Shown here: one piece after another, positions 48,064-50,497 of the stretch
Layout: every line of letters starts with the position of its first letter
Position numbering within the stretch: position 1 is the first letter of the stretch
NCBI RefSeq assembly: GCF_014656075.1
Contig: NZ_BNBS01000014.1
Coordinates: forward strand, 1 to 64,000
DNA from: Streptomyces hydrogenans
GTDB lineage: Bacteria; Actinomycetota; Actinomycetes; Streptomycetales; Streptomycetaceae
Direction: 5' to 3'
Length of the DNA: 64,000 bases
Position numbers and translations under genes: made by a program
Notes under the pieces: model-generated
What the model was told of the DNA's origin: nothing
The model's input: only the letters and a program-made list of their open reading frames with translations
The model's database searches: none

Positions 48064-49491
48064 ATGCGCCGAGCGAAAATCGTTTGTACCCTTGGGCCCG
48101 CCACCGAAACATACGACCAGATCAAGGCATTGATCGAGGCCGGAATGGATGTGGCCCGCCTCAACCTCAGCCACGGCACCTACGTCGAGCACGAGGAGCG
48201 TTACCAGCGGGTCCGCAAGGCGGCCGAGGAGACCGGTCGCAGCGTCGGGGTCCTCGCCGACCTTCAAGGCCCGAAGATCCGGCTCGGCCGCTTCCGCGAG
48301 GGTCCCGTACTCCTTGAACGCGGCGACGACTTCACCATCACCGTCGAGCCGACGGAGGGCGACCGCCACTGCTGCGGCACCACCTACCCGGGCCTCGCGG
48401 CCGACGTCACCTCCGGCGAGCGGATCCTCGTCGACGACGGCCGGGTCACCCTGGAGGTCACCTCCGTCGACGGGCCCCGGGTGCACACCCGGGTCGTCGA
48501 GGGCGGCATGGTCTCCGACCACAAGGGCCTCAACCTGCCGGGCGTCGCGGTCTCCGTCCCCGCGCTCTCCGAGAAGGACGTCGAGGACCTCCGCTGGGCG
48601 CTGCGCACCGGTGCCGACGTCATCGCCCTCTCCTTCGTCCGCTCCGCGCGGGACATCGAGGACGTCCACCGGATCATGGACGAGGAGGGCCGCCGCCTCC
48701 CGGTCATCGCCAAGATCGAGAAGCCCCAGGCGGTCGAGAACATCGAGGAGATCGTCGCCGCCTTCGACGGCATCATGGTCGCCCGCGGCGACCTCGGCGT
48801 CGAGATGCCGCTGGAGCAGGTGCCGATCGTCCAGAAGCGCGCGGTCAAGCTCGCCAAGCGGAACGCCAAGCCGGTCATCGTCGCCACCCAGATGCTCGAC
48901 TCGATGATCGACAACTCCCGGCCCACCCGCGCCGAGGCGTCCGACGTGGCCAACGCCGTCATCGACGGCACCGACGCCGTGATGCTCTCCGGCGAGACCA
49001 GCGTGGGCCGCCACCCGGTCGAGACGGTCCGCACCATGAGCCGGATCGTCGAGGCCGCCGAGGAGGACGTCCTCGCCAAGGGCCTGCCGCCGCTGACCGA
49101 GCGGAACAAGCCGCGCACCCAGGGCGGCGCGGTGGCCCGCGCGGCCGCCGAGATGGGCGACTTCCTCGGCGCGAAGTTCCTGGTGGCCTTCACCCAGTCC
49201 GGCGACACCGTGCGGCGGCTCTCGCGCTACCGCTCGCCGATCCCGCTGCTCGCCTTCACGCCGGACCCGGCGACCCGCTCCCAGCTCAACCTCACCTGGG
49301 GCGTCGAGACCTTCCTCGGCCCGCACGTCGACTCCACGGACGCCATGGTCGCGCAGGTCGACGAGGAACTGCTGCGCATCGGCCGCTGCGCCAAGGGCGA
49401 CGTCGTGGTGATCACGGCCGGCTCCCCGCCCGGCGTCTCGGGCTCCACCAACCTGGTCCGCGTCCACCACATCGGAGACCCGCTCTCCTAG
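48064..49491 (+). CDS. pyk: Pyruvate kinase
   Basis: A 475-residue glycolytic enzyme transferring phosphate from phosphoenolpyruvate to ADP. Motifs are RRAKIVCTLGPATETYDQIK, ARLNLSHGTY, LADLQGPKIRLG, VIAKIEKPQAVENIEEIV (catalytic Lys) and MVARGDLGVEMPLEQVP, MLSGETSVGRHPVETVRTM. The C-terminal regulatory domain (about 340-475) is present, so allosteric control is likely. The 147-bp upstream region has a perfect-armed dyad and a TAGGCT hexamer (48052-48057) close to the ATG, so transcription may start at or near the start codon. Streptomyces usually carry two pyruvate kinases; this one sits beside the ANTAR regulator. Confidence 0.96.
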   Translation: MRRAKIVCTLGPATETYDQIKALIEAGMDVARLNLSHGTYVEHEERYQRVRKAAEETGRSVGVLADLQGPKIRLGRFREGPVLLERGDDFTITVEPTEGDRHCCGTTYPGLAADVTSGERILVDDGRVTLEVTSVDGPRVHTRVVEGGMVSDHKGLNLPGVAVSVPALSEKDVEDLRWALRTGADVIALSFVRSARDIEDVHRIMDEEGRRLPVIAKIEKPQAVENIEEIVAAFDGIMVARGDLGVEMPLEQVPIVQKRAVKLAKRNAKPVIVATQMLDSMIDNSRPTRAEASDVANAVIDGTDAVMLSGETSVGRHPVETVRTMSRIVEAAEEDVLAKGLPPLTERNKPRTQGGAVARAAAEMGDFLGAKFLVAFTQSGDTVRRLSRYRSPIPLLAFTPDPATRSQLNLTWGVETFLGPHVDSTDAMVAQVDEELLRIGRCAKGDVVVITAGSPPGVSGSTNLVRVHHIGDPLS

Positions 49492-49524
49492 CCCGCGGAC
49501 ACCCGCACGCGACGGCATGCGAAA

Positions 49525-49558
49525 GAACCCCGCTCCCAAGGACTGGGCGGCGGGGTTC
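49525..49558 (+). terminator. Terminator after pyk
   Basis: GAACCCCGC / GCGGGGTTC, a 9-bp perfect stem; the 16-nt loop has further C/G runs that may extend it. Confidence 0.7.
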
Positions 49559-49655
49559 GGGTGCTTCCGGGCGGAGGGGACGTCCTGGGCGGGCCGGTCG
49601 CCGGTCCCCTCACCGGAACGCCTGAGGATCTCATTCCTAGGAATCGAAGGTAATG

Positions 49656-49728
49656 TGCCCCGGGTGGGATTCGAACCCACGCTGGATGGTGTTTGAGACC
49701 ACTGCCTCTACCGCTGGGCTACCGGGGC
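49656..49728 (-). tRNA. tRNA with CAA anticodon (tRNA-Leu by anticodon, class I shape)
   Basis: A complete 73-nt cloverleaf. The 7-bp acceptor stem GCCCCGG / CCGGGGC is perfect, the T arm is GTGGG-TTCGAAT-CCCAC, the D arm contains AGCGGTAGA, and the anticodon loop CTCAAAC gives anticodon CAA, reading UUG. The anticodon stem has one G-U pair. Discriminator base is A and CCA is not encoded. The variable loop is only five bases (CCAGC), whereas leucine tRNAs normally have a long variable arm. The assignment as tRNA-Leu therefore follows the anticodon only. It lies between the convergent end of pyk and the pdtaR promoter. Confidence 0.85.
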
Positions 49729-49843
49729 TTCCTTCGAAACAAAGGCCGATGATCACCCGCCGTGCCCCTACCTTACAGGAGGTGGGTAGGCTCATGGAGA
49801 GCTGTATCCGCCTCGGAACGAGGCCATCGAACGAGGAGCCCGC

Positions 49844-50497
49844 GTGACTGCCCCCGAGTCGCCCCAGCCCGCCGACGACGCCGAAGCGTCCCACGTCCCG
49901 CCGCTGACCACCCGTGTCGTCATCGCCGAGGACGAGGCCCTGATCCGCCTCGATCTCAAGGAGATGCTGGAGGAGGAGGGCTACACGGTCGTCGGCGAGG
50001 CGGGCGACGGAGCCACCGCCGTCGAGCTGGCCCGCGAGCACCGCCCCGACCTGGTGATCCTGGACGTGAAGATGCCCGTCCTCGACGGCATCTCGGCCGC
50101 CGAGAAGATCGCCGGCGAGTCCATCGCCCCGGTCCTCATGCTCACCGCCTTCTCCCAGCGCGACCTCGTCGAGCGCGCCCGCGACGCCGGCGCCATGGCC
50201 TACCTGGTCAAGCCCTTCAGCAAGAGCGACGTGGTGCCGGCCATCGAGATGGCCGTCTCCCGCTTCGCCGAGCTGCGCGCCCTGGAGCAGGAGGTCGCCG
50301 ACCTCAGCCAGCGCCTGGAGACCCGCAAGCTGGTCGACCGCGCCAAGTCGGTCCTCCAGACCCAGTACGGCCTCTCCGAGCCGGCCGCCTTCCGCTGGAT
50401 CCAGAAGACCTCCATGGACCGCCGCATGTCCATGCAGCAGGTCGCCGAGGCCGTCATCGAGGACGCCGAGGAGAAGAAGGCCGCGAAGGGGCAGTAG
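49844..50497 (+). CDS. pdtaR: ANTAR-domain response regulator (PdtaR-like)
   Basis: A 217-residue two-component response regulator. The receiver domain (about 24-140) shows VVIAEDEALIRLDLKE with the acidic pair, the phosphorylation site Asp74 in LVILDVKMPVLDG, LTAFSQRD and the conserved Lys in YLVKPFSKSD. The C-terminal ANTAR RNA-binding domain (about 155-210) reads LETRKLVDRAKSVLQTQYGL then AAFRWIQKTSMDRRMSMQQV. The mycobacterial relative PdtaR (Rv1626) is phosphorylated by PdtaS and acts by transcription antitermination at paired RNA hairpins. No sensor kinase is next to it here. The GTG at 49844 gives MTAPESPQPADD. Confidence 0.9.
   Translation: MTAPESPQPADDAEASHVPPLTTRVVIAEDEALIRLDLKEMLEEEGYTVVGEAGDGATAVELAREHRPDLVILDVKMPVLDGISAAEKIAGESIAPVLMLTAFSQRDLVERARDAGAMAYLVKPFSKSDVVPAIEMAVSRFAELRALEQEVADLSQRLETRKLVDRAKSVLQTQYGLSEPAAFRWIQKTSMDRRMSMQQVAEAVIEDAEEKKAAKGQ

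Follow-up and report, generated by a model that had tools for sequence, protein, structure and literature searches.

Endonuclease genes that lie beside tRNA genes are already known from phages. SegB, a GIY-YIG enzyme of the tRNA region of phage T4, is the product of a free-standing gene next to tRNA genes that is inherited at high frequency in mixed infections (accessible text of PMC2988022), and SegB homologues co-localise with phage tRNAs of a wide range of isotypes (accessible text of PMC13096335). The Streptomyces locus described here resembles this arrangement, but its putative endonuclease family is of the LAGLIDADG type with an HTH, is mostly chromosomal and is tied to tRNA-Leu, and the tRNA itself changes class. 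I-DmoI and I-Tsp061I share the fold and two acidic motifs with the Streptomyces family; going by their entry titles, however, they are intron-encoded, whereas here the gene lies approximately 100 bp outside a tRNA called intronless. A further relative by fold is WhiA, a LAGLIDADG protein of Streptomyces that also carries an HTH, in its case C-terminal. WhiA is a transcription factor according to its entry title, in contrast to the gene studied here, which is sporadic and often broken.

Leucine tRNAs lacking a long variable arm also have precedents. Human mitochondrial tRNA-Leu(UUR) is leucylated in the absence of the arm, through A73 and A14, although this is an organelle lineage, and an exchange of alleles is not described in the accessible text of the source (PMC9976931). 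Within the Actinobacteria, a tRNA-Leu(UAG) of a mycobacterial accessory cluster has a short variable loop (accessible text of PMC6582537), but it is an accessory copy beside a normal isoacceptor, whereas the short form in Streptomyces is the conserved locus itself. Synthetic Cleave-and-Rescue elements combine a nuclease directed against an essential gene with a linked, resistant version of that gene (accessible text of PMC7951863); these elements are engineered, and the natural likeness considered below is an analogy drawn from gene linkage.

One CAA gene is reported in each of six Streptomyces in a paper whose accessible text lacks the word ‘variable’ (PMC4932002), and the accessible part of a review of non-canonical tRNAs makes no mention of Streptomyces, Actinobacteria or ‘short variable’ (PMC7609411). 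In the open-licence literature, with subscription journals largely outside, we found neither a description of a class I tRNA-Leu(CAA) in Streptomyces nor a tRNA-Leu-associated LAGLIDADG family nor any switching of tRNA class on a chromosome. Measured against this searched literature, the endonucleases beside phage tRNAs and the short tRNA-Leu(UAG) are known, and the class switching and the tRNA-Leu-tied LAGLIDADG family are new. Our main reading, to which we give roughly two chances in three, is that the tRNA examined here is a working, UUG-reading tRNA-Leu and one allele of a locus at which the two tRNA classes are exchanged, with a homing endonuclease as the driver; we infer the leucylation, the DNA cleavage and what it targets, and which way conversion runs. 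Whether the variable arm is long or short is usually regarded as given for each isoacceptor, whereas here the class changes from one sister species to another at a single chromosomal place.

The window, by which we mean the whole 64,000-nt stretch of DNA analysed, carries the following features at this locus:

48064 to 49491, plus strand: pyk, pyruvate kinase, the 3' neighbour of the tRNA (Pfam PK, 3.3e-120)
49492 to 49655, no strand: spacer between pyk and the tRNA, empty here and the site of the LAGLIDADG gene in relatives
49656 to 49728, minus strand: class I tRNA-Leu(CAA), 73 nt without CCA (ARAGORN, Rfam, homologue alignment, covariation)
49681 to 49685, minus strand: 5-nt variable loop CCAGC, tRNA positions 44-48 (sequence; position 48 covaries with position 15)
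49693 to 49695, minus strand: anticodon CAA, tRNA positions 34-36 (ARAGORN and sequence)
49729 to 49843, no strand: spacer between the tRNA and pdtaR, the 5' flank of the tRNA, whose tRNA-proximal half changes along with tRNA class
49844 to 50497, plus strand: pdtaR-like ANTAR response regulator, the 5' neighbour of the tRNA (Pfam Response_reg, ANTAR)

ARAGORN finds a single tRNA in the window, a tRNA-Leu(caa) of 74 nt on the minus strand at 49655-49728, and the Rfam model RF00005 matches 49656-49728 on the same strand with 60.5 bits (gathering score 29) and an E-value of 1.3e-10. Read from the sequence, the gene has a 7-bp acceptor stem, a 3-bp D stem, a 5-bp T stem, A73, the anticodon loop CTCAAAC and no encoded CCA. 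The first-pass annotation had noticed a leucine anticodon inside a class I body, and this is borne out by ARAGORN, by Rfam and by a variable loop of 5 nt where a class II arm would have at least 10 nt. In an alignment of 24 homologues, standard pairs make up 98.0% of the pair cells against 82.7% after shuffling, 13 of 21 pairs have changed on both sides (8.6 when shuffled) and double-changed cells number 69 (18.3 when shuffled). The tertiary 15-48 pair also covaries, being AU in 16 homologues and GC in eight; the window tRNA itself has G15-C48 and not A15-U48. Since pairs including 15-48 have changed on both sides, the tRNA gene is under structural constraint, and the window tRNA is, as judged from these alignments, well formed and subject to that constraint. 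A pseudogene reading of the window tRNA is rejected on the strength of the same covariation. A DNA search with the tRNA gave matches in 51 of 61 genomes, including genomes with only a tRNA(CAU) match, and a promoter scan of 49480-49860 found no promoter.

A73 and A14 are invariant in all 24 homologues, and the two D-loop Gs together with the A that follows them, to which we assigned the standard numbering, are invariant or at least 90% conserved, so that the class I tRNA-Leu(CAA) possesses the set A73, A14, G18G19, A20a and a 15-48 pair. In E. coli, leucine identity lies in A73, A15-U48, G18G19 and A20a, and tRNA-Leu variants without the long arm stay active (accessible text of PMC9976931), which speaks against the premise of the first-pass annotation that leucyl-tRNA synthetase needs a long variable arm. 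The form of the 3-bp D stem and its loop matches the tRNA-Leu(GAG) of the same genome and is thus a Leu-type D-arm, and that genome has one LeuRS frame above the TIGR00396 cut-off. When the codons of pyk and pdtaR from 89 loci were aligned, Leu-consensus columns contained 80 of the 86 TTG codons present in class I genomes, 19 of 24 in class II genomes and 88-89% of the CTG codons taken as a control; reassignment would have placed UUG at non-leucine positions, which is not what these two genes display. From the retention of A73 and the Leu-type D-arm, the TTG codons at conserved leucines and the single LeuRS frame, we conclude that the window tRNA probably decodes UUG as leucine in the ordinary way. 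Of the roles that had been offered for it, that of a rarely used UUG decoder is therefore the likely one. Charging with another amino acid, or a function outside translation, would fit a short variable loop that is non-canonical for tRNA-Leu, but the TTG columns (80/86), the class II tRNA-Leu(CAA) that occupies the same position at 27 of 80 loci and the retained A73 and D-arm disfavour both, and we give this pair of suggestions almost no credence and have set them aside as a main reading.

The remaining tRNA-Leu genes of this genome were sought in its 332-contig assembly, where 70 tRNA hits were obtained and then read with ARAGORN. Six tRNA-Leu genes are of class II: CAG (87 nt), GAG (88 nt, three copies), UAA (86 nt), which we take from its anticodon to be bldA, and UAG (85 nt). 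In the comparison with the genome's other tRNA-Leu genes that had been proposed at the outset, these six genes are long, at 85-88 nt, and further short UAG and CAA genes exist as well. Among the matches listed, ARAGORN reading and the pattern search showed no CAA gene of class II in this genome. The idea that the window tRNA is the genome's sole CAA tRNA was overturned by a second short CAA tRNA-like gene on contig C1, which is missing from the Rfam tRNA hits and was found by later searching. On C1 (L284 8913-8985 and 9527-9602; approximately 277412-278102), approximately 600 bp separate two short tRNA-Leu-like genes with the anticodons UAG (73 nt) and CAA (76 nt), and the class II tRNA-Leu genes lie elsewhere. 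Ten proteins around this pair gave no clear mobile-element family and six of the ten are without any family; the families present nearby are SHOCT with PLDc_N, MreB, I36 inhibitor and DUF7873. The same genome has low-scoring, odd tRNA calls (L063-L066: Pro CGG, Gly GCC, Ala GGC and Trp CCA), of which L064 and L065 are almost copies of each other but differ in anticodon.

The closest named relatives of the window pdtaR, among the best 80 of 534 relatives, are from Streptomyces and are 97-98% identical to it. In all of these 80 named Streptomyces loci exactly one tRNA, Leu(CAA), lies beside pdtaR, and pyk is within the fetched stretch in 76. The tRNA belongs to class I at 53 loci and to class II at 27; the first-pass annotation had regarded its puzzle as dissolved should short tRNA-Leu genes be normal in Streptomyces, and they are. 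ARAGORN reads Leu(CAA) at 29 of the 29 loci L067-L095, with called lengths of 74-79 nt. A pattern search of 91 genomes of the genus returned, among the matches listed, short CAA tRNAs in some genomes and long ones in others, and the six long CAA tRNAs that were fetched all adjoin pdtaR, five of them also with pyk on the other side. The CAA pattern also caught tRNA-Sec(UCA) calls in two Streptomyces genomes (L140 and L143).

A tree of pyk and pdtaR, which represents two flanking genes and is not a genome-wide species tree, was built from 89 rows, comprising the 80 named loci, the window, one more locus of the genus and seven others. Tracing tRNA class on it requires 24 changes (23-24 across bootstrap trees), at least 19 of which are forced by the starred branches, and 23 changes are needed on a quick tree. 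Shuffled class labels need a mean of 23.4 changes, that is, as many as were observed. Identical tRNAs occur in loci whose flanking genes are up to 0.185 apart, the median over all pairs being 0.148. The bldA tRNA served as a control: of 61 genomes, 60 contain a full-length match to it, with identities of 87-100%. Class I and class II tRNA-Leu(CAA) swap often between sister species at this shared locus.

Alignment of sister loci of different class brought to light a gene that lies between the tRNA and pyk, on the same strand as the tRNA. A LAGLIDADG-type endonuclease gene gave no match in the window locus or in the 332 contigs of its genome. Across 81 Streptomyces loci including the window the gene is intact in 48, broken in 11 and absent from 22, the gene counting as absent where the 1300 bases 3' of the tRNA contain no match; the corresponding figures are 30, 6 and 18 for class I loci and 18, 5 and 4 for class II loci, and the whole 89-locus set has 26 loci without the gene. 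Sporadic presence with broken and empty sites is the pattern of a homing endonuclease. Elsewhere in the genus, 46 of 61 genomes have an endonuclease match (in G213 only a weak match to the HTH), and the gene lies 88-188 bp from tRNA-Leu(CAA) at 34 of the 34 loci L236-L269.

Both endonuclease proteins that were compared with Pfam reach LAGLIDADG_3 (PF14528), with scores of 23.3 and 25.3 against a cut-off of 22.5, and their N-terminal HTH domains match below the Pfam cut-off. There are two LAGLIDADG-like motifs, and both motif acids are invariant in 21 of 21 aligned endonucleases. An AlphaFold model (pLDDT 89.2, pTM 0.77) matches I-Tsp061I (E 1.8e-8), I-DmoI (Z 16.1) and WhiA (Z 15.7, 8dy7). Other searches were less specific: NCBIfam gave nothing for three of four endonuclease proteins and an IS630 hit far below cut-off for the fourth, PHROGs gave weak hits only, with the viral relative L280 matching a family called endonuclease at E 3.1e-4, and a sequence search of the PDB returned two HTH-like chains and two homing endonucleases at E 0.09. 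The neighbouring gene of the relatives thus combines the predicted LAGLIDADG fold with two acidic motifs, and it is probable, from sequence and model, that it encodes a free-standing, DNA-cutting homing endonuclease. In 50 intact genes the median dN/dS is 0.57 for the N-terminal half (564 pairs) and 0.22 for the C-terminal half (1126 pairs), pairs with dS outside 0.05-1.2 being excluded; the protein is therefore under selection, which in the C-terminal half is purifying.

The fold shared with WhiA and the N-terminal HTH would also suit a WhiA-like protein, domesticated to regulate the tRNA or pdtaR and moving together with its own operator. We consider this highly improbable, since both motif acids are invariant, the gene is absent or broken in 33 of the 81 loci and the family adjoins different tRNA-Leu genes in several orientations. 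Two observations on the structure of the locus may be added. In two genomes (G036 and G216; L285 and L286) two intact endonuclease genes stand in tandem by one tRNA-Leu(CAA), and the tRNA-proximal copy starts like type A and goes on like type B of the HTH types compared below. At L195 and L209 the stretch between the tRNA and the endonuclease gene contains a long inverted repeat and, after it, a T run, which together are probably the tRNA terminator.

The family is not confined to Streptomyces. It is present in 14 of 148 genomes drawn from the phylum, six of which are Streptomyces. The eight remaining genomes contain nine matches, and each of these lies 20-122 bp from a tRNA. These tRNAs are Leu(CAA) in five cases, Leu(UAG) in two, Leu(CAG) in one and Trp(CCA) in one, and the gene lies on either side of the tRNA in several orientations. 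In IMG/VR, four viral contigs carry distant relatives of 34-35% identity, three of which lie 55-64 bp from a tRNA-Leu(UAA), two of these (L280 and L281) looking nearly alike; on the fourth contig (L283) the sole tRNA-Leu call of ARAGORN overlaps the endonuclease frame itself. A search of an annotated phage collection with one endonuclease protein gave no match. The tRNA-Leu neighbours outside the genus and in viral contigs point to the tRNA-Leu gene as the target of the enzyme. The member beside tRNA-Trp(CCA) (L276, genome G145) may have undergone a change of target.

The HTH of the endonuclease occurs in two types, A and B, and these are linked to tRNA class. Among typed loci there are 27 with class I and type A, eight with class I and type B, none with class II and type A and 19 with class II and type B, with seven loci untyped; for Streptomyces alone the counts are 27, 5, 0 and 19 (Fisher p 8.8e-10). 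In 12 independent sister pairs differing in class, type differed in the same way in a mean of 9.7, in the opposite way in none and not at all in 2.3 (sign test, p approximately 0.002). A further 34 loci, in which some species may overlap those of the first set, gave 11, 7, 0 and 13, with three untyped. Untyped endonucleases were kept outside the linkage counts; by eye, the three of the further set are one class II with type B and two class I with type A. Type A is thus found with class II in 0 of 19 typed class II loci and then in 0 of 13, while class I occurs with type B in 8 of 54 typed loci and 7 of 31 in the further set. All three outgroup loci that were read combine class I with type B; should this combination be the ancestral one, as it may be, less can be concluded from the lack of type A at class II loci.

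The linkage is one of class with type. In a Mantel test of 47 loci, which excluded L075, L079 and L086 (outside the genus), L191, L202, L222 and L234 (broken or oddly read) and the untyped loci, tRNA distance correlated with that of the HTH (r 0.54) and of the first LAGLIDADG part (r 0.40), and the values for the C-terminal half of the endonuclease, pdtaR and pyk were 0.03, 0.03 and -0.01; pyk and pdtaR distances agree with each other (r 0.53). Within classes the tracking of the HTH by the tRNA was mostly absent (class I, r 0.05, p 0.27; class II, r -0.27; type B, r 0.08, p 0.15), and for class I with type A alone it was r 0.28 (p 0.002), pdtaR there also giving r 0.17 (p 0.024). It is from this loss of correlation inside the classes that the linkage can be assigned to class and type, and a finer co-evolution of tRNA and HTH inside a class was sought and mostly not found.

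How far the exchanged tract extends can be read from mean identities in 28 close pairs of loci of different class and 19 of the same class (for pyk, 22 of the 28 and 18 of the 19). Given in this order, pdtaR is 0.93 and 0.95 identical, the 50 bases of the 5' flank nearest pdtaR 0.70 and 0.87, the 50 bases nearest the tRNA 0.46 and 0.70 (shuffled control, 0.45), the tRNA 0.60 and 0.83, the N-terminal half of the endonuclease 0.59 and 0.66, its C-terminal half 0.80 and 0.81, and pyk 0.90 and 0.87. As the tRNA-proximal flank is random-like between sisters of different class, a change of class replaces the tRNA together with its 5' flank. The N-terminal half of the endonuclease is divergent in same-class sisters too (0.66 against 0.59) and so is by itself no footprint of a class swap; its divergence follows HTH type, and the two loci have different types in 25 of the 28 different-class pairs and in 4 of the 19 same-class pairs. 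In the pair L195/L209 the endonucleases are approximately 90% identical and the tRNAs are of different class, indicating that an exchange of the tRNA need not include the endonuclease.

This last pair would also be expected if ordinary homologous recombination or lateral transfer, acting through the conserved and recombinable flanks, exchanged the tRNAs, with the endonuclease carried along as a passenger and the tRNA gene left uncut by it, and 26 of the 89 loci indeed lack the endonuclease gene. Such an explanation does not account for the different behaviour of the bldA tRNA, the position of the family beside tRNA-Leu outside the genus and in viral contigs, the linkage of HTH type to tRNA class or the purifying selection on the endonuclease, and we regard it as unlikely. 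Less likely again is an arms race in which tRNA-cleaving toxins or defence systems select variant tRNA-Leu(CAA) bodies and the endonuclease is secondary. What class I lacks is precisely the variable arm, and variable-loop nucleases exist (accessible text of PMC13096335), but an arms race of this kind predicts neither the linkage to the HTH type of a neighbouring gene nor the association of the family with tRNA-Leu elsewhere.

According to the reading that we prefer, in which a homing endonuclease drives the exchange, the ordinary leucyl-tRNA synthetase would charge the short tRNA through A73 and the D-arm with no need of a long arm, and class I and class II tRNA-Leu(CAA) alleles would replace each other at the locus. 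The driver would be the free-standing LAGLIDADG endonuclease, with its HTH and two motifs, encoded approximately 100 bp 3' of the tRNA at most Streptomyces loci, which probably cleaves tRNA-Leu(CAA) alleles of non-tolerated kinds. With a donor chromosome as the template, repair would then copy the donor tRNA and its promoter side, in a tract that would usually include the N-terminal, putatively target-reading half of the endonuclease gene and would end in conserved pdtaR sequence on one side and in the C-terminal half of the endonuclease gene or in pyk on the other. A tRNA allele linked to an endonuclease would have to be one that its own enzyme leaves uncut, and class II never having been seen with type A, the model predicts that type A cuts class II alleles. 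The window strain would represent the endonuclease-free, empty phase of the cycle; the L107 allele, which differs from that of the window at 4 of 74 positions (by our count), is linked to an open type A gene in another genome (G189, L268).

Several consequences would follow. With a selfish endonuclease family as its likely driver, the exchange would be a case of selfish DNA rewriting a core decoding gene of bacteria, and the matched enzyme and target alleles form a ready set for studying the co-evolution of homing enzymes and their targets. As class switches here without sign of a coding change, the locus offers a natural experiment on the requirements of leucyl-tRNA synthetase, and short ‘misfit’ tRNA calls in genome annotation become understandable. 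More tentatively, and with the odds in our estimate against it, the element may act as a natural form of cleave-and-rescue, in which the endonuclease destroys the tRNA-Leu(CAA) of recipients and is linked to an allele that it cannot cut, the class I body being the immune version. Were this true, such elements would, through the selection they exert, have turned tRNA class into a trait that switches rapidly in Streptomyces, and short tRNA-Leu genes elsewhere in the phylum would be explained.

Class I tRNA-Leu also occurs outside Streptomyces. The 30 loci fetched from the phylum with a class I model, including that of the window, have the anticodon CAA in 17 cases, UAA in 12 and a call of Phe(AAA) by ARAGORN in one; pdtaR is nearby in 16 of the 17 CAA loci. 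The class I tRNA-Leu(UAA) genes lie in other genomes of the phylum (L104, L105, L108, L112, L113, L117 and L120-L125) and have a body like that of the class I CAA tRNA.
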